Assembly: GCA_903910495.1 (NCBI GenBank)
Contig: CAIVZW010000807.1
Coordinates: 1 to 8,063, forward strand
Length of the DNA: 8,063 nucleotides
Direction: 5' to 3'
Source: an uncultured beta proteobacterium
Lineage (GTDB): Bacteria; Pseudomonadota; Gammaproteobacteria; Burkholderiales; Rhodocyclaceae
The notes below the pieces were generated by a model. It was not told the origin of the DNA. It saw nothing but the letters and a program-made list of their open reading frames with translations, and ran no database searches. The position numbers were made by a program, and so were the translations under genes. Shown in pieces: positions 1,623-8,063 of this stretch (its first letter is position 1; the number at the start of each line of letters is the position of its first letter).

Positions 1623-2687
1623 TCAAAGGAAGGACGGGAAGGGCAGATCGGTATCCTTGGTGAAGACGTCGTCAAAGCCGCGGTAGAAGTGGAATTCCAT
1701 GTCATCCTTGTTGTCCGGGAAGACGAATTTGCCGCCGACCTGCCAGATGTAGGGTTTGAACTTGTACTTCAGGCGATCCTTCTTCATCTTCCACAGCATG
1801 GTGATTTCCATCGGGTCGGCCATGAAGTTGGACCAGATGTCGTGGTGGAAGGGAATCATCACCTTGGTGTTGAGAGCTTCGGCCATGCGCAGGATGTCCG
1901 ACGAGGTCATCTTGTCGGTGATGCCGCGCGGATTCTCGCCGTAGGAGCCGAGTGCCACGTCGACCACGTGCTCGTTGCCGTGCTTGGCGTAGCCGTTCGC
2001 GTAGTGCGAGTCGCCGCTATGGTAGAGGTTACCGCCGGGGGTCTTTACCAGATAGTTGACTGCGACTTCGTCCATGTCGGCCGGCATCTTGCCTTTCGCG
2101 GTTTCTTCCTTGGGCAGGGTGATGGCCATGGTGCGGTCGAAGGACTCAAGCACCACCAGTTCGATATCTCCGACTTTAATGACATCGCCGGGCTTGACCT
2201 GAACGATGCGCTCGGCTGGAACGCCCCATTTCTTCCACATGTCGGCACAGGACTTGGGCCCGATGAACGGCACCTTGGCGTCGCAGTTCTTGAGCACGGC
2301 CGCCGCCACATTGACGTCGATGTGGTCGTTGTGGGTGTGCGTGGAAATCACGGCATCGATCTGTTTGATGGCAAACGGGTCGATCACGAAGGGCGATACA
2401 CGCAGGTTGGGTTGCAGCGCCACGCAACCGCTCATGCGCGCCATCTGGTGATGCGCATCCATCAGCGGGTTCTTCATCGAGCGCTTGCCGGTACCGCACC
2501 ACAGGTCGATACAGATATTGGTGTTGCCTTCGGTCTTGACCCAGATGCCGGTACAGGCCAGCCACCACATGGCAAACGTACCGGGTTTGACCACTTCGCG
2601 CTCTATTTCTTCATTCAGCCAGGTACCCCATTGCGGGAAGGTGCTCAGAACCCACGATTCCTTGGTGATCTCATCTACTTTTGCCAT
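1623..2687 (-). CDS. ulaG: UlaG-family L-ascorbate-6-phosphate lactonase (metallo-beta-lactamase fold)
   Basis: UlaG hydrolyses the lactone ring of L-ascorbate-6-phosphate to 3-keto-L-gulonate-6-phosphate, the first cytosolic step of anaerobic ascorbate use. The 354 residues equal the length I recall for E. coli UlaG, and the sequence resembles it throughout. Visible landmarks are [20 protein letters not shown] (10-29), [10 protein letters not shown] (103-112), the metal motif HTHNDH at 117-122 (HxHxDH), LYHSGDSHY (221-229) with the metal-ligand type Asp226, [16 protein letters not shown] (247-262), [11 protein letters not shown] (278-288) and the C-terminal PSFL. The ATG is preceded by AGGAG (minus strand, plus 2694-2698) with a six-base gap. 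It lies downstream of and co-directional with the FG-GAP-like gene, but the 151-bp gap holds its own promoter and operator-like boxes. The family assignment is firm. The physiological substrate is inferred, because the PTS that would make ascorbate-6-phosphate is not in the window. Confidence 0.96.
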
Positions 2688-2706
2688 TTCTTTCTCCTGT
2701 TAACTG

Positions 2707-2781
2707 TTCATATTGATCTGTTGAGAAGATCATAATGCAATAATATGACCGATAATATTGATTTGCAAGATCATATTGATA
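2707..2781 (-). promoter_or_regulatory. ulaG promoter with a cluster of TCATAWT operator-like boxes
   Basis: On the minus strand TTGCAA (plus 2763-2768) and TATTAT (plus 2740-2745) are 17 bp apart, a good sigma-70 pair about 53 bp before the ulaG ATG. At least four related AT-rich boxes surround it: TTCATATTGATC (2707-2718), GATCATAATGCA (2728-2739), GATAATATTGAT (2751-2762, inside the promoter spacer) and GATCATATTGAT (2769-2780). A fifth, weaker copy is readable on the minus strand at 2738-2750. TGATC (2714-2718) and GATCA (2728-2732) also form an inverted pair. Repeated boxes on and around a promoter suggest repression, plausibly by the DeoR-family protein at 5569. Confidence 0.6.
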
Positions 2782-2838
2782 ATTGCAGCCTTCTTGGTGT
2801 GAGTAGGCGAAGAAATCCCTTTATCTGTCCGACTTGCC

Positions 2839-3876
2839 TTATTGCTGACTGACGAAATAGAGCGCGGCTTCGGCCTTTTCACGGTTGGCCGCGACGATGA
2901 TGTCCCGGTTTTTCTCATGCAGGACATGGATGTTGCTGGGGCCGACGCCTTCCTCGATGACTTCCGCCCGGAGTTCCAGCGGCTTGGCCTTGCTGGCATG
3001 AACATAGAAAAGCTGTTGTTTGCCGCGGCGGCAGCCGCCGATGAATACCGGTTGTTTTGCCAGGGTCGTTCCGACGACGACGTGATAGAACTCGCTCTGT
3101 TCGGGATGTTCGAAAATTTTCCTGAAGACGCCGTCGATCTTTTTGTACACCCTGAAATACGTGCCGTGGAAGGGTTCGATGGTGGCAAACTCGAGTTCGC
3201 CGTCGCCGTCGATATCCACGGCAGAAATATCGCTGATCGGCCAATCCATGAACTGTTCAACCGTCCAGCCGGCGCCCGGCGTTTGCGGCGGGGTGACTTC
3301 AAACGCACCTTGTTCGCAGGTCACCAGGCTGGACATTCTTCCATTGCGGGTGAGCCGGCTATAGCCATGATTCCTGGTCAGGCCGTCCTTGAGGACCTTT
3401 AACTGAAGCGGGCCGCTGGCGGTGAACTCGCCGACCCAGATTTTCCCAGGATTTGACCAGTCCTCCCTGGACTCCTTGCTGGTGGCCAGCGTGCAGCCGA
3501 TGAAATAATGCCTGTCGCCGACGCTCAGCAGGTCAAAGCGGTGGATGTAGGGGAGGTGGAGAATGTCACTGACTGCATAGCCGCCTGTTTCCAGGGGGCG
3601 AACATGGACGACTTTCGCCTCTTCCCACTGGAACATCTTGAAAAATTTCTGGACGGCCAGGAACTCGCCATTGGTACCGGGAATGGGAACGATGGACATG
3701 GTGCCGCCGGGGCCTTCCCATACCGTATGCGCAGTGTCGTATTCGGGGCCGGACCATGCCAGGCAGGGGCCTTCGCCTTCGGTTGCCAGCATTATCCGGG
3801 TCTGGCCGTCTACTACGATGCTGCTGGCTGAATAGCAGCGGTTCATCTGCGTCAGAAAGCGTTTTTCGATTTTCAT
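2839..3876 (-). CDS. Uncharacterised FG-GAP/VCBS-like (probable beta-propeller) protein, 345 aa
   Basis: Function unknown. The sequence shows one clear FG-GAP-type calcium loop, DIDGDGELEF (221-230), and spaced beta-strand-like segments such as ARxMLATEGEG-type (28-36), YIHRFDLLSVGDRHYFIGCTL (110-130) and YHVVVGTTLAKQPVFIGGC (264-282), as in propeller folds. There is no signal peptide or membrane segment, unlike many FG-GAP proteins, which are secreted, so it is probably cytosolic. The ATG at 3874-3876 is preferred because GAGGA sits seven bases upstream; an in-frame TTG seven codons earlier (3895-3897) lacks this. It is divergent from the kinase and upstream of ulaG, so it probably belongs to the same catabolic locus. 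It could be a lactone or sugar-acid enzyme, a mutarotase-like helper or a ligand sensor; nothing visible decides. Confidence 0.85.
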   Translation of the reverse strand: MKIEKRFLTQMNRCYSASSIVVDGQTRIMLATEGEGPCLAWSGPEYDTAHTVWEGPGGTMSIVPIPGTNGEFLAVQKFFKMFQWEEAKVVHVRPLETGGYAVSDILHLPYIHRFDLLSVGDRHYFIGCTLATSKESREDWSNPGKIWVGEFTASGPLQLKVLKDGLTRNHGYSRLTRNGRMSSLVTCEQGAFEVTPPQTPGAGWTVEQFMDWPISDISAVDIDGDGELEFATIEPFHGTYFRVYKKIDGVFRKIFEHPEQSEFYHVVVGTTLAKQPVFIGGCRRGKQQLFYVHASKAKPLELRAEVIEEGVGPSNIHVLHEKNRDIIVAANREKAEAALYFVSQQ

Positions 3877-3926
3877 GAAAGCATCCTCGGATATCAAAAT
3901 GACTGAAAAATTGAAAAGTTTGTTTG

Positions 3927-3955
3927 ATTTTATATCATAATGATGAAATCGTAAA
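3927..3955 (-). promoter_or_regulatory. Promoter of the FG-GAP-like gene with an operator in its spacer
   Basis: On the minus strand TTTACG (plus 3950-3955) and TAAAAT (plus 3927-3932) are spaced by 17 bp, about 50 bp before the ATG. The spacer contains the perfect palindrome ATCATAATGAT (3934-3944), the cleanest version of the boxes seen upstream of ulaG. An operator between -35 and -10 is a classic repression site, and the local DeoR-family protein is the obvious candidate. Confidence 0.55.
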
Positions 3956-3990
3956 TAATATAACGATCAAAAAGATCGTATTGCAACGAT
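3948..3990. promoter_or_regulatory. Array of inverted ACGAT half-sites in the divergent promoter region
   Basis: Four half-sites alternate in orientation: ATCGT (3948-3952), ACGAT (3963-3967), ATCGT (3975-3979) and ACGAT (3986-3990). The middle pair forms the 17-bp palindrome ACGATC-AAAAA-GATCGT (3963-3979), and the last pair forms ATCGT-ATTGCA-ACGAT. The last three centres are 11-12 bp apart, about one helix turn. The array lies between the divergent FG-GAP-like and kinase genes and could bind the DeoR protein or another regulator. Confidence 0.45.
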
Positions 3991-4011
3991 GCTTTTTGCC
4001 CGCAGAGGCTT

Positions 4012-4037
4012 TACAATGAAACGCACACAACGTGTGT
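4012..4037 (+). promoter_or_regulatory. Weak candidate kinase promoter -10 box and leader palindrome
   Basis: TACAAT (4012-4017) is a good -10 box 32 bp before the kinase ATG, but I find no convincing -35 hexamer 16-18 bp upstream, so this promoter may need an activator. Just downstream, near the expected transcription start, ACACA-ACG-TGTGT (4025-4037) is a perfect five-base inverted repeat that could be an operator. Confidence 0.3.
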
Positions 4038-4049
4038 AACGGGGCGTTC

Positions 4050-5558
4050 ATGAAGGGAATCATTACTGTCGACATCGGGACCAGCAGCATGAGAGCAATT
4101 CTCTATGATGCCGACGGGGGGGTGATCGATGTCCGGCAGCGTGAAAATCAGCCGGAGTATTTCACCGACGGCCGGGTTGAGCAGGATCCTGCTGCCTGGC
4201 AGAACGTCTTGTGCGACGTATTGAAGGCTTGCGCGGCTTGTGCTGCGGCCAAAGGCATTGAACCGCTCTGCGTGTCGGTTACCGCGCAGCGATCATCAGT
4301 CATCCCGGTCGATGCAGAGGGCGTTCCCCTGCACCCGGCCATCATGTGGCAGGATAGGCGGTCGGCTGATCTTGCACGGGCCATGGAAGCACATGACCCC
4401 TTGGTCTATCGGAAGACCGGACTGAAGATCTCCCCGGTTTTTTCGGCCCTCAAGATGACCTGGTTGCGCAGGCAGCATCCCGGCTTATGGCAGAAAACCC
4501 ACAAGATGATCGGCATCCAGGACTGGGTGCTCTATCTCCTGACCGGCCGGTTCGTAACCGACCATAGCTTTGGCAGCCGGACCAATCTGCTCGATCTGGA
4601 GAAGCGGGACTGGGATCCTGAACTGCTGTCGCTGTTCGAGGTCGAGCCCCGGATGTTGTGCGATCTGGTGGCGCCGGGGTCGATTGTCGGTGGACTAACG
4701 CCGGCCATGGCCAGAGCCACCGGACTGGTCGCCGGTTTGCCCGTGGTTTCCGCTGGCGGCGATCAGCAGTGTGCGGCACTGGGCCTCGGCTTGTTTTCCG
4801 GCGAACGGGCGGTTTCCAACACCGGAACCGGCTCGTACCTGATCGGCCACACGGACAGGCCGGCATTCGATGAAGAAATGCGTCTGGCCTGCAATGTTTC
4901 GGCCGTCCCCGGCGCGTACATCGTCGAGGCGGCCGTGCTGACTTCGGGAACCATTTATCGCTGGTTCAGGGAATCGATTATCCAGCCGGACGACAGCGGG
5001 GGAAATCCATTTGCCACCATGGATGCCGAGGCGGAAGCTGTTTCGCCCGGTGCGAACGGTCTGCTGCTTTTGCCACATTTCAAGGGGTGTGGCGCGCCGT
5101 ACTGGGATCCGGAGGCCAAGGGCGTGTTCTTCAACATGACCCTGAGTACTTCTCGCGGGGAAATGGCGCGCGCCATTCTGGAAGGTATCGCCGTCGAGAT
5201 GAAGGGAAGTCTCGAACTGGTCGAGACGCTTTGCGGCAAGGTGGGTTCGGTCAGCGTTTCCGGCGGTATGACCAAGTCGGACCTGTTCAACCAGATTCAG
5301 AGCGACATTTTTGAACGCCCCATCGTCCGCTTCCGGAATAACGAAGCGACCTCGCTGGGGGCATGGATTGCCGCTGCCGTTGCCGTGGGGCTGGAAAAGA
5401 GTTATTCAGGTGCCTTTGCCCGTGTGGGTGACGCCGGCTCGGCGCGCACCTATCAACCCGATGCAGCCAACCGTGAAATTTATTCAGCCCAGTGCCGCCG
5501 TTCAAGGGCGCTGTATCAGGCTCTCGCCACACCGGAGTTCCGGGAATTGATCAAGTAA
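4050..5558 (+). CDS. FGGY-family carbohydrate kinase (substrate unknown)
   Basis: ATP-dependent sugar or polyol kinase of the FGGY superfamily (xylulokinase/glycerol kinase/gluconokinase relatives), cytosolic, 502 aa, the usual length. The N-terminal phosphate-binding loop VDIGTSSMRAILYD is at 7-20, QDRRS at 101-105, a near match to FGGY signature 1 around K135-MTWLRRQ, the catalytic-base motif GGDQQCAALG at 236-245 (Asp238 aligns with the glycerol kinase GDQQ Asp), NTGTGSYL (257-264), GAPYWDPEAKGVF (348-360), RAILEGIAVEM (374-384) and the adenine-site segment SVSGGMTKSDLFNQ (402-415). The ATG at 4050 is chosen because MKGIITVDIG is the normal family start; an in-frame GTG at 4032 adds six unlikely residues. 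The weak ribosome site is GGGG (4041-4044). It is followed ten bases later by the DeoR gene. L-xylulose, L-ribulose, ascorbate- or gulonate-type substrates are all possible. Confidence 0.9.
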   Translation: MKGIITVDIGTSSMRAILYDADGGVIDVRQRENQPEYFTDGRVEQDPAAWQNVLCDVLKACAACAAAKGIEPLCVSVTAQRSSVIPVDAEGVPLHPAIMWQDRRSADLARAMEAHDPLVYRKTGLKISPVFSALKMTWLRRQHPGLWQKTHKMIGIQDWVLYLLTGRFVTDHSFGSRTNLLDLEKRDWDPELLSLFEVEPRMLCDLVAPGSIVGGLTPAMARATGLVAGLPVVSAGGDQQCAALGLGLFSGERAVSNTGTGSYLIGHTDRPAFDEEMRLACNVSAVPGAYIVEAAVLTSGTIYRWFRESIIQPDDSGGNPFATMDAEAEAVSPGANGLLLLPHFKGCGAPYWDPEAKGVFFNMTLSTSRGEMARAILEGIAVEMKGSLELVETLCGKVGSVSVSGGMTKSDLFNQIQSDIFERPIVRFRNNEATSLGAWIAAAVAVGLEKSYSGAFARVGDAGSARTYQPDAANREIYSAQCRRSRALYQALATPEFRELIK

Positions 5559-5568
5559 GGAATCTGAA

Positions 5569-6369
5569 ATGAAAGAGACAAGCAAGCGCCCACTGTCAAC
5601 GGTATCCAATTACCGCCATAAAAAAATTCTGGAGATGCTGTATCAGCGGCAGTCGGTTTCCGCTGACGAATTGGCCACTGAATTCGGCGTCTCCAAGATC
5701 ACCATCCGGCGCGACCTGGATGCACTGGCCGGTGATAAATATCTGGAGCGGACGCGTGGCGGGGCGGTTACGGTTTCCGGTCTCCGGCTGGAAGAGTTTT
5801 TTGAGGAGAAGGACCATTCGGCCAAGCGGGAAAAAATGCTGATCGGCCGCTATGTAGCTTCTCTGGTTTCGGAAAACGAAACGGTTTTCGTCAATGCCGG
5901 CTCGACGACGCTGGAGGTTGTCCGGCATCTGAACGGCAAGAAAGTGAGGGTCGTCACCAACAATGCGGCGTGCCTGGGACTTGAACTTGATCCCCAGCAG
6001 GAACTGATCCTGCTCGGTGGTGATTACCGCATTCAATCCAAATCACTGGTTGGCGACCTGACCATCGCCGGCCTGCACAGTATATTTTCCAGTATTACCG
6101 TGCTCGGTATCAACGGGGTGAGCATCAAGAAAGGCTGCACCTCGGCCGTTCACCAGGAAACCAGTGTGAACAAGGCCATGATCGAGAACTCAAGCGGCAA
6201 GGTCATCGTGGTGGCTGATCATACCAAGATGAATTGCGTGTCCAGCTTCCTCACCTGCCCGCTGAGCCGCATCGACATGATCGTGACCGACTGGATGACG
6301 CCGCCCGCTTTCTGCGAGGAGCTCGAAGAGTCGGGTTTGTGTGTGGTGCGTGTTGCGGAAGAAAACTGA
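5569..6369 (+). CDS. DeoR/GlpR-family transcriptional regulator
   Basis: Sugar-phosphate-responsive repressor, 266 aa. The N-terminal DeoR-type winged helix-turn-helix spans about 15-67, with ILEMLYQRQSVSADELATEF (20-39), the recognition helix VSKITIRRDLDAL (41-53) and the wing RTRGGAV (61-67). The C-terminal sensor domain (about 86-245) has the sugar-phosphate-binding pattern FVNAGSTTLEVVRHL (107-121), VVTNNA (128-133), LGGDYRIQSKSLVG (149-162), LGINGVS (179-185) and VIVVADHTKM (212-221). Its ribosome site AAGGA overlaps the TAA of the kinase gene, ten bases away, so the two are translationally close and co-transcribed. E. coli UlaR, which controls ulaG, is of this family, so an equivalent role is plausible, but orthology cannot be shown here. 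Probable operators are the ATCATAWTGAT-like boxes at 2707-2781 and 3934-3944. Confidence 0.93.
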   Translation: MKETSKRPLSTVSNYRHKKILEMLYQRQSVSADELATEFGVSKITIRRDLDALAGDKYLERTRGGAVTVSGLRLEEFFEEKDHSAKREKMLIGRYVASLVSENETVFVNAGSTTLEVVRHLNGKKVRVVTNNAACLGLELDPQQELILLGGDYRIQSKSLVGDLTIAGLHSIFSSITVLGINGVSIKKGCTSAVHQETSVNKAMIENSSGKVIVVADHTKMNCVSSFLTCPLSRIDMIVTDWMTPPAFCEELEESGLCVVRVAEEN

Positions 6370-6412
6370 CTCGTAATCCTTTAGGGAAACACTGATTAAG
6401 TATCGAATTGTC

Positions 6413-6427
6413 ATTCCGGCGAAAGCC
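6413..6427. repeat. Left part of the REP hairpin interrupted by the IS
   Basis: ATTCCGGC (6413-6420), the loop GAAA (6421-6424) and GCC (6425-6427) are the first part of a hairpin whose missing arm GGAAT resumes at 7812-7816, directly after the IS. Joining the two gives a perfect eight-base stem with a GNRA loop, which fixes the IS boundaries to within a base or two. Confidence 0.8.
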
Positions 6428-6433
6428 AATGGG

Positions 6434-6446
6434 ATGGACTCCTCCC
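6434..6446 (+). repeat. IS left subterminal inverted repeat
   Basis: ATGGACTCCTCCC, an exact reverse complement of 7795-7807. It sits inside the left end of the IS, upstream of the transposase. Confidence 0.92.
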
Positions 6447-6513
6447 CCCTCACGGCATCGAAGTGCCAAACTGGGAGTGTCATCAACCAGTCAAGAGAAG
6501 GAAGGAGTCCGAA

Positions 6514-7548
6514 ATGAACGTTACACGTATTGGTCTTGATTTGGCAAAGAACGTCTTTCAAGTTCACGGTGTTGATCGGCAGGAGTCCGTGATCGTCAAG
6601 CGCAAACTCAGTCGCAGCCAGGTGCGCGGCTATTTCGAGAAACTTTCCCCCTGCCTGATCGGGATGGAAGCCTGCGCCAGCGCCCATTACTGGGCACGCG
6701 AGTTTGGCCGAATGGGCCATCAGGTCAAGCTCATCGCCCCCCAGTTCGTCAAACCGTACGTCAAGAGTCAGAAGAACGACGCCAATGATGCCGAGGCCAT
6801 CTGTGAAGCGGTGGGGCGCCCCAACATGCGCTTTGTCGCCGTCAAGACGGTGGCGCAACAAGATGTCCAGGCCATCCATCGCATCCGCAGCGAACTGGTC
6901 CGGCAACGCACGGCCAAGGCCAACCAGATCCGCGGCCTGCTGGGCGAATACGGGATCGCCGTGCCTATCGGTATCGGCGCACTGCGGCGTGCCCTGCCGG
7001 AACTTCAGGAGGACGCGGAGAACGGCCTGAGCGGCGTGTTCAGGCGTCTGCTGACCGGTCTGCGTGAGGATCTGGAAAACTTCGATACCCGCGTTGCGGC
7101 GCTGGATGAAGAAATTGCTATCGCCGCCCGCGATGATGCCGTAGCACAGCGCCTGCAGAGCATTCCGGGCATCGGGCCGATGGGGGCGACAGCCTTGGTC
7201 TCTGCCGTCGGCGATGCTCGGCAATTCAAGCGCGGACGGGACATGGCCGCCTGTTTGGGGCTGACCCCGGGTCAGCACAGCAGTGGCGGCAAGGAACGGA
7301 TCCTGGGGATCAGCAAGCGCGGCGACAGCTATCTGCGCCTGCTGCTGATTCATGGCGCCCGGGCCGTGCTCAAGGTGGCCGGCAGGAAAACAGACCCGCG
7401 CAGTTGTTGGGTGATGAACATCGCCGCCCGGCGCCACAAGAACGTGGCGGCGGTGGCGCTGGCCAACAAGAATGCACGGATTGCCTGGGCGTTGCTGACC
7501 CAGGGTGGCGTGTATGATGCCAAGCATGGCATGGCGGCGACTGCCTGA
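6514..7548 (+). CDS. IS110-family (IS1111-group) DEDD transposase
   Basis: RNA-guided recombinase of 344 aa that moves the IS through a circular intermediate. The N-terminal RuvC-like DEDD domain shows IGLDLAKN with Asp9, LIGMEACASAHYW with Glu52, and KNDANDAEA with Asp89 and Asp92. A helical middle (about 115-210) leads to the C-terminal Tnp domain: IPGIGPMGATALVSAVGD (217-234), the catalytic-serine region GLTPGQHSSGGKERILGISK (249-268; Ser256/Ser257 are the candidates), and GDSYLRLLLIHGARAV (270-285). The ATG at 6514 is chosen because GGAG (6504-6507) is six bases upstream and MNVTRIGLDLAKN is the usual family start; an upstream in-frame extension has no such support. The frame is complete with all catalytic residues, so it may be active. 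Confidence 0.95.
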   Translation: MNVTRIGLDLAKNVFQVHGVDRQESVIVKRKLSRSQVRGYFEKLSPCLIGMEACASAHYWAREFGRMGHQVKLIAPQFVKPYVKSQKNDANDAEAICEAVGRPNMRFVAVKTVAQQDVQAIHRIRSELVRQRTAKANQIRGLLGEYGIAVPIGIGALRRALPELQEDAENGLSGVFRRLLTGLREDLENFDTRVAALDEEIAIAARDDAVAQRLQSIPGIGPMGATALVSAVGDARQFKRGRDMAACLGLTPGQHSSGGKERILGISKRGDSYLRLLLIHGARAVLKVAGRKTDPRSCWVMNIAARRHKNVAAVALANKNARIAWALLTQGGVYDAKHGMAATA

Positions 7549-7605
7549 GTCGCTATCGAGAAACAAAACTCTTTCAACCCGCGATTGCAAAAGAGAGAAG
7601 AGTGA

Positions 7606-7770
7606 TGGCAAAACGGTCGAACCGGCGGTGGGAGAGACTGAGGATTCCGGTGGCCCTTGAGGCCGAAAAGCCGATAAGTCCCCGCCGCGCGCATGCCCAT
7701 CATGGCCGGGTGCATTCAACATGTGCCACCAACAGGTCGGATATACGGTCGCAGTCGCACCCATTTGCCA
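7606..7770 (+). ncRNA. Predicted seekRNA/bridge RNA of the IS1111-group element
   Basis: IS1111-group elements encode their guide RNA downstream of the transposase, and this 3' region folds accordingly by eye. A stem of CGGCG (7623-7627)/CGCCG (7683-7687), GGG (7630-7632)/CCC (7680-7682) and ACT (7637-7639)/AGT (7677-7679) encloses an internal loop capped by the hairpin GGCC-CTTGA-GGCC (7652-7664). The loop sides are GGATTCCGG (7642-7650), complementary to the rebuilt target CC+GGAATCC, and AAAGCCG (7667-7673), identical to the target strand on the other side. A second loop has ATATACGG (7741-7748), identical to the IS right junction (7806-7813), and CCCATT (7760-7765), complementary to the left end AATGGG (6428-6433), around the short stem GGTCG-CAGT-CG(C)ACC. 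TGGCAAA (7606-7612) can pair with TTTGCCA (7764-7770), so the limits given are approximate. Confidence 0.65.
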
Positions 7771-7794
7771 AATCTCAACTCACTCTTGCAAATA

Positions 7795-7807
7795 GGGAGG
7801 AGTCCAT
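7795..7807 (+). repeat. IS right subterminal inverted repeat
   Basis: GGGAGGAGTCCAT, an exact reverse complement of 6434-6446, four bases inside the inferred right end. Confidence 0.92.
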
Positions 7808-7858
7808 ATACGGAATCCGACCGTAGGGAATGCAGAGCCAGAAGAATCAACGAACTGG

Positions 7859-7900
7859 ACCCCGGCACCCCAAGGGCACTTCCTGCGGGGCGCTTTCGCC
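7859..7900. other. Compound hairpin region before the epimerase stop
   Basis: Two competing folds are visible: CCCCG-(G)-CA (7860-7867) with TGCGGGG (7884-7890), and CCGGC (7862-7866) with GCCGG (7898-7902). GGCG-CTTT-CGCC (7889-7900) can also form alone. It is the second hairpin of the REP-like element with extra bases in its loop. It lies downstream of the minus-strand epimerase gene and may act as a transcript end, but no U-tract follows. Confidence 0.45.
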
Positions 7901-7926
7901 GGTGTGACGACTTATTCAGTGCGTCC

Positions 7927-8063
7927 TTAGTTTTGCCCGTAATAGGCGCCGGGGCCGTGCTTGCGGTTGAAGTGCTTTTCCAGCAGATGTTGCGGCATCG
8001 GTGGCAGATTCTTTTCCAGTTGCAGGCTGAGCAGCGCCATGCGCGCGGTCAGTTCCAGGACTG
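7927..8063 (-). CDS. araD: L-ribulose-5-phosphate 4-epimerase family (AraD/UlaF/SgbE), C-terminal 44 residues only
   Basis: Class II aldolase-fold enzyme that interconverts L-ribulose-5-phosphate and D-xylulose-5-phosphate through a retro-aldol step, the last step of L-arabinose and of UlaD-UlaE-UlaF ascorbate breakdown. Only the C-terminus is in the window; the gene runs in from the right edge on the minus strand and ends in TAA (plus 7927-7929). The visible end has a helix VLELTARMALLSLQLE and then LLEKHFNRKHGPGAYYGQN, which matches the KH..RKHG..AYYGQ tail characteristic of this family. I recall the UlaF/SgbE form (KHGPxAYYGQ) as closer than AraD, and the ula-like context supports that, but 44 residues cannot settle the paralogue. 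It converges on deoR. The stop codon lies within the right end of the REP/MITE-like element, so the last residue and the stop may derive from that element. Confidence 0.88.
   Translation of the reverse strand, partial: VLELTARMALLSLQLEKNLPPMPQHLLEKHFNRKHGPGAYYGQN

Follow-up and report, generated by a model that had tools for sequence, protein, structure and literature searches.

A member of the IS1111 group of insertion sequences, at 6427–7810 of the window (the whole stretch of 8,063 nucleotides analysed here), very probably makes a two-module RNA of about 174 nt, a bridge RNA or seekRNA in which a target arm and a donor module would carry two guides each. The RNA structure is conserved among related elements, and three guides (the two for the target and the left one for the donor) co-vary with the DNA of the element that carries them. 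Comparison with these relatives confirms three of the four guides predicted from the window, and it replaces the fourth by a likelier candidate.

The element and its surroundings

By its sequence features, the element belongs to the IS1111 group of the IS110 family. Two perfect 13-bp sub-terminal inverted repeats (sTIRs) lie at 6434–6446 and 7795–7807, with extensions of 7 bp on the left and 3 bp on the right, which is the rule given for IS1111 elements in PMC11187229 (this and the other papers cited here are represented by parts of their text). All features of the element, its RNA and its target are on the plus strand. One C is shared by the two borders (6427/7811), and thus the ends are ambiguous by one base. 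A reading made earlier from the sequence alone (the sequence-only reading) gave a span that ends at 7811. Under the published 7-bp/3-bp rule the element covers 6427–7810, which is 1384 bp, and C7811 belongs to the flank, with the one-base ambiguity remaining.

The element encodes a DEDD transposase of 344 aa at 6514–7548, with matches to PF01548, PF02371 and NF033542. The NCBIfam model NF033542 names it an IS110 family RNA-guided transposase. The ATG at 6514 is our choice of start; the listed open reading frame begins with a GTG at 6463. Read by eye, GLTPGQHSSG in the translation fits the motif GL-P----S(T)G that PMC11187229 defines for the IS1111 group. A sequence search of the PDB returned only ISCro4 and IS621 below E 1e-3. 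The non-coding DNA amounts to 262 bp after the transposase stop codon and about 80 bp on the left side. Overall, this is an ordinary, well-formed IS1111 member with an unusually readable RNA.

The genes to the left of the element include an L-ascorbate-6-phosphate lactonase (1623–2687, minus strand; NF008688, E 3.6e-193), an FGGY sugar kinase (4032–5558) and a DeoR-type regulator (5569–6369). Together, the region 1623–6369 resembles a sugar-acid utilisation cluster. The stretches 2839–3897 (minus strand) and 1069–1503 had no Pfam or NCBIfam match, and a tRNA search of the window reported none. An orthologous locus in another genome (L210:3493–3733) has no insertion sequence: about 107 bp after its DeoR gene comes the sequence that lies downstream in the window, 73% identical over 134 bp.

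Elements compared

The first set of relatives was drawn from the best 80 of 529 transposase relatives. Ends were obtained for 61 of the 62 selected loci (L079 gave none); the remaining loci of the 80 were left out for want of a clear sTIR or because the contig ended too soon. The free target search used 56 elements with flanks of at least 12 nt, with L069 left out. The fixed-column tests used 49 elements, from which L068, L069, rows with short flanks and rows at least 85% identical had been removed.

A larger set began with 178 transposase hits, of which 137 had an sTIR score of at least 10 and 101 remained after rows at least 85% identical were dropped. The tests used 100 elements (without L196), 98–99 where flanks were required, and 93 in the column-by-column comparison. 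The filter on the sTIR score fixes some outer bases of the repeat in this set. L069 was included here; the inverted match that contains its ends scores 73 and greatly exceeds the length of a normal sub-terminal repeat. The z scores compare own with foreign sequences by permutation and are uncorrected for kinship. Word frequencies by chance come from 3000 dinucleotide shuffles of the 246-nt stretch 7549–7794, in which a word was counted if it occurred exactly at least once.

Conserved RNA structure

In a consensus structure of 34 sequences, 96.3% of the cells were paired. Its covariation score was 0.510; shuffles scored 0.170 ± 0.013 and slid controls 0.06–0.13, the latter comparison favouring the structure because it was derived from the same 34 sequences. 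The alignment holds 34 of the 49 elements, with 15 more divergent ones omitted, and it therefore leans to closer relatives. The sequence-only reading had proposed folding the 3' region together with related elements, and the conserved structure that it expected is there. The target-arm stem (7625–7632 with 7681–7688) is the best supported part, with changes on both sides at all eight of its pairs. The helix 7604–7608/7697–7701 has such changes at one of five pairs, and the donor module has a stem of its own (7704–7707 with 7735–7738).

Adding the long-range helix 7583–7588/7751–7756 gave a score of 0.446 against 0.163. An RNA bounded by this helix would span 7583–7756, a length close to the long form of 145–170 nt in PMC11187229. 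The sequence-only reading had the RNA begin at 7606; the start is probably nearer 7583, if the helix marks the edge. An Rfam search of 6300–8063 found no match up to E 1, and single-sequence folding was not exceptional (z −1.69 and −1.44).

Target guides

All four segments named by the sequence-only reading are present where it had placed them. The first, GGATTCCGG, was taken as the guide for the top strand of the target, and this assignment held up: it lies at a conserved place, and 7642–7649, complementary to the right flank from +1 to +8, co-varies with the relatives' own flanks. The predicted guide for the bottom strand (7667–7672) is identical to the left flank from −5 to −1 plus the core base, and a small hairpin (7652–7664) separates the two. 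The word occurred in 0.2% of shuffles for GGATTCCGG and in 4.7% for AAAGCCG.

At fixed columns in 98 non-redundant elements, the bottom-strand guide matched its own flank at 5.36 of 6 positions, against 1.83 after permutation (z 30.8), and the top-strand guide at 4.50 of 7, against 2.17 (z 20.6). With ±3 nt of slack, the top-strand guide reached 5.92 against 3.45 (z 27.0). The smaller set of 49 elements gave the same picture for both. Column by column, RNA bases 7667–7671 track left-flank bases −5 to −1 and RNA bases 7642–7649 track right-flank bases +8 to +1. Where the left flanks of sister elements differ, the RNA had followed at 97 of 135 changed positions, a count that includes one pair with an element that has no left flank (L145). 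When the top-strand and then the bottom-strand guide were searched for freely, the window's own target scored 15 of 17 and the best foreign target 13; across the set, the own target outscored all 55 foreign targets outright in only 20 of 56 elements.

AAAGCCG had been read as a seven-base guide to the left side of the target. The part at 7667–7672 co-varies as described, and the seventh base is dispensable, since a relative in the related genome G001 has the same bottom-strand guide and the target CAAGCC, against AAAGCC in the window. In the element, the top-strand match stands 5' of the bottom-strand match. This is the order of IS1111 seekRNAs and the reverse of IS110 according to PMC11187229.

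Left donor guide

The predicted left donor guide (7741–7746) repeats the five terminal bases of the right end together with the core base. In most relatives, CCG(G/A) in the RNA precedes a copy of that element's own five terminal right-end bases and its core base. At fixed columns the match was exact in 92 of 100 elements, against 8.0% for foreign ends (z 20.3). The guide had first been located with the element's own end, which is circular, and a retest therefore used a neutral anchor consisting of the surrounding conserved letters only. This anchor occurred once in 76 of 101 elements, several times in 4 and not at all in 21; with it, 71 of 76 were exact, against 8.0% in cross comparisons (z 16.8). 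Where sister elements differ in the right end or core, the RNA tracked 45 of 51 changed positions. Together, the column matches, the retest and the changes between sisters identify 7741–7746 as a left donor guide, and the claim that a second module reads the right end of the element is supported. This guide sits where helices meet, in agreement with the multiloop position in many IS1111 orthologues (PMC11208160).

The sequence-only reading had matched a longer word, ATATACGG (0.03% of shuffles), to the right junction. Its first six bases are the guide just described, while the G after the core fits the right flank and not the end of the element. Target and donor differ at the second base after the insertion point in 64 elements; RNA base 7747 agrees with the target in 57 of these and with the donor in 4, although the agreement with the target rests largely on a common G. 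With the neutral anchor, the agreement held in 3 of the 7 elements in which the second right-flank base is neither G nor that of the donor. A base 7747 that reads the target would explain one of the two additional Gs in ATATACGG, and the signal recalls the handshake guides of IS621 (PMC11208158). The core base itself differs between the left end and the right flank in 11 of 99 elements (e.g., L023, L038 and L096), and 7 of the 11 have the base of the insertion sequence in their RNA.

These results bear on the rival that survives best, namely that the RNA guides the choice of target only, that its likeness to the donor reflects inheritance or another role, and that the transposase itself reads the sub-terminal repeats. 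For ISEc11, an RNA of 82 nt is reported to suffice for movement (PMC11187229), which speaks against an essential donor module. Moreover, the ends are inherited, so kinship can mimic co-variation, and co-variation of the right donor guide between sisters is weak (see below). Against this stand the 45 of 51 right-end and core changes that the left donor guide has followed and its 71 of 76 exact matches under the neutral anchor, and we consider a target-only RNA unlikely.

Proposed right donor guide

For the left end of the element, the sequence-only reading had proposed CCCATT (7760–7765), which is the exact complement of the window's left-end AATGGG and is unchanged in a relative whose 3' region is 90% identical. 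If this were the right donor guide, the donor loop would have its bottom-strand guide first, opposite to the target loop. The assignment fails among the relatives: the homologous columns read otherwise, the own left end is matched in 1 of 49 and 1 of 100 elements (in both cases the window itself), and the scores are chance-like (z 0.7 and 1.7, or −0.4 and −0.5 with slack). CCCATT also occurs in 8.2% of shuffles. We regard it as very improbable that this segment is the guide.

The likely right donor guide is instead CCCAT at 7696–7700, complementary to left-end bases 3–7. In the first set of 49 its signal was weak among 22 elements with unusual left ends (z 1.5–2.2), and the set of elements was enlarged for this reason. 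Among 100 elements, 51 matched exactly, against 20.8% in cross comparisons (z 10.2), and z was 6.6 in the 34 elements whose left-end bases 3–7 differ from ATGGG or ATGGA. The signal comes from base 6 (90% versus 63%) and base 7 (60% versus 33%). Left-end bases 3–5 hardly vary and are thus uninformative, and bases 1–2 were not read by 7696–7700 in the 100 elements. Several elements illustrate the match: L192 and L194 have a left end in ATGTG and CACAT in the RNA, L124 has ATGCC and GGCAT, L066 has ATGAC and GTCAT, and L121, L161, L164 and L167 have ATGAG and CTCAT.

Between sister elements, the RNA at 7696–7700 tracked 10 of 40 left-end changes; it was unchanged in 24 and had changed otherwise in 6. 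Four of its five bases also pair with 7604–7608 in the conserved helix. The opposite strand of that helix, 7604–7608, was considered as a copy of the left end and showed no co-variation in the large set (z −0.6). As a part of the proposed mechanism, the guide at 7696–7700 is moderately supported. The sequence-only reading had found the strand sense of the two loops to disagree; with 7696–7700 both loops run with the top-strand guide first, so this conflict is gone if the assignment is right.

Target hairpin and copies in a related genome

Joining the flanks of the element by the 7/3 rule restores an intact REP-like hairpin, ATTCCGGCGAAAGC^CGGAATCC, with no added duplication. The left part, ATTCCGGCGAAAGC, lies at 6413–6426 and the right part, CGGAATCC, at 7811–7818, and the joined target is a perfect 8-bp hairpin. 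The related genome G001 has the uninterrupted hairpin in four exact copies and in four with one mismatch. One of its loop bases is A or C.

Among the best 80 of 529 relatives, the closest is L001 in G001: its transposase is 81% identical to that of the window, and the DNA of its insertion sequence aligns at 78%. Copies of this close relative in G001 lie at contig borders, and their 3' region is 90% identical to that of the window. Their guide letters are those of the window. All four left flanks have CAAGC before the shared C, one of them with a mismatch further out, and all four right flanks begin with CGGAATCC. The sequence-only reading had named copies at unrelated targets as the finding that would speak against it; applied to this close relative, the test came out in its favour, with four of four left and four of four right flanks in the same hairpin. 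It is thus supported that the target loop of the predicted RNA spells the REP-like hairpin that the element entered.

The remaining rival, in which the transposase responds to the fold of the REP hairpin and the matching letters are incidental, has in its favour the perfect 8-bp hairpin and the fact that REPs are known landing sites of several insertion sequences (PMC1525189), but relatives with quite different flanks keep matching guides (z 20.6 and 30.8), and it can practically be dismissed. The sequence-only reading had spoken of direct evidence for RNA-programmed entry into the hairpin. Readable target guides are supported, while "direct" is too strong a word for evidence that is comparative.

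G001 also holds a second insertion sequence (L086 and L090–L093) with the left end TAATGGA. At three of four places, its left flank ends in CGGAA, directly followed by the T with which the element begins; apparently it inserts into this repeat family too, but at a different position. The last ten bases of the right end of the first insertion sequence lie next to L091. In the copy L086 the guides fit the flanks poorly (5 of 7 and 5 of 6). In genomes of the family of G001, five elements (L105, L107, L109, L113 and L115) share guide letters and have left flanks ending in GAAT. Their right flanks fit the top-strand guide at 7 of 7 positions in three elements and at 5 of 7 in two, and these mismatches suggest tolerance or drift on the right side.

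Relation to known elements

The same guide order was read in the named elements IS5075 and IS4321 (L211 and L212), with 7 of 7 for the top-strand guide, 5 of 6 for the bottom-strand guide and both donor words exact; the word for the right donor guide occurs twice in the region, once at the conserved place. These two differ from the element in the window in target and left end, and their transposases are about 38% identical to its own. An element of Pseudomonas veronii gave 6 of 7, 6 of 6 and both donor words. In L214 the bottom-strand guide was placed with a short gap, and its letters occur again beyond the hairpin. For IS5708 (L213) the ends were not found and the guides were not readable.

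The mechanism class has been published, and this element adds one more member. It resembles the IS1111 elements ISEc11, ISPa11 and ISKpn4 (Siddiquee et al. 2024, PMC11187229) in its sub-terminal repeats with 7/3 extensions, in an RNA region after the gene, in a top-strand guide 5' of the bottom-strand guide and in overlapping target matches. ISPa11 also targets a REP. The element differs from the three in its target and in a donor module that comparison with relatives reveals here; no donor match for IS1111 is given in the cited parts of PMC11187229.

The bridge RNA of IS621 likewise has a target and a donor module, each with two opposite-strand guides that include the core (PMC11208160, PMC11208158). 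The left end of IS621 contains the RNA, whose loops have the bottom-strand guide first, that is, the left guide 5' and the right guide 3'. The element in the window has its RNA in the right end and, with 7696–7700 as the right donor guide, both loops would be reversed. Thus, an RNA in the right end with the top-strand guide first in the target loop sets it apart from the IS110 group of the IS621 type. It is like the predicted IS1111 bridge RNAs of PMC11208160, which lie in the right end and have donor nucleotides in a multiloop. The donor guides in that paper come from inspecting six elements, and three of the six belong to the IS1111 group. Among the matches listed in a literature search (titles and the starts of abstracts, with few subscription papers covered), no other study pointing to IS1111 donor guides was found.

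Proposed mechanism

In the proposed mechanism, one guide of the target arm would pair with the top strand to the right of the insertion point and, after the small hairpin, the second would pair with the bottom strand to its left. The donor module would follow the same order, with the short guide to the left end (7696–7700) first and the guide to the right end and core (7741–7746) second. The transposase loaded with this RNA would bring the junction of the circular insertion sequence and the hairpin together, and the two would recombine at the core base they share. We infer the transcription of the RNA, its binding by the protein and the reaction itself from what has been published on other members.

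A further model, which we put forward tentatively and think somewhat less probable than not as a whole, is that the long IS1111 RNA is a full bridge RNA whose donor polarity is reversed like that of the target arm. Here, the right donor guide may double as a strand of the helix 7604–7608/7697–7701 and act as a switch between a free and a donor-bound state, and base 7747 may be a handshake-type base that reads the target and checks the product. If this is true, the helix and donor binding would exclude each other.

For most of the relatives tested, the letters of the RNA fit the insertion site and the right end, and thus both are largely readable from the RNA. The analysis adds evidence, drawn from comparison, that IS1111 RNAs have a donor module. 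PMC11187229 left this point open, as it calls both the role of the long RNA form and the recognition of the ends open. The left donor guide makes end recognition and the role of the long RNA testable, and the rule for strand order is needed for programming IS1111-type systems.
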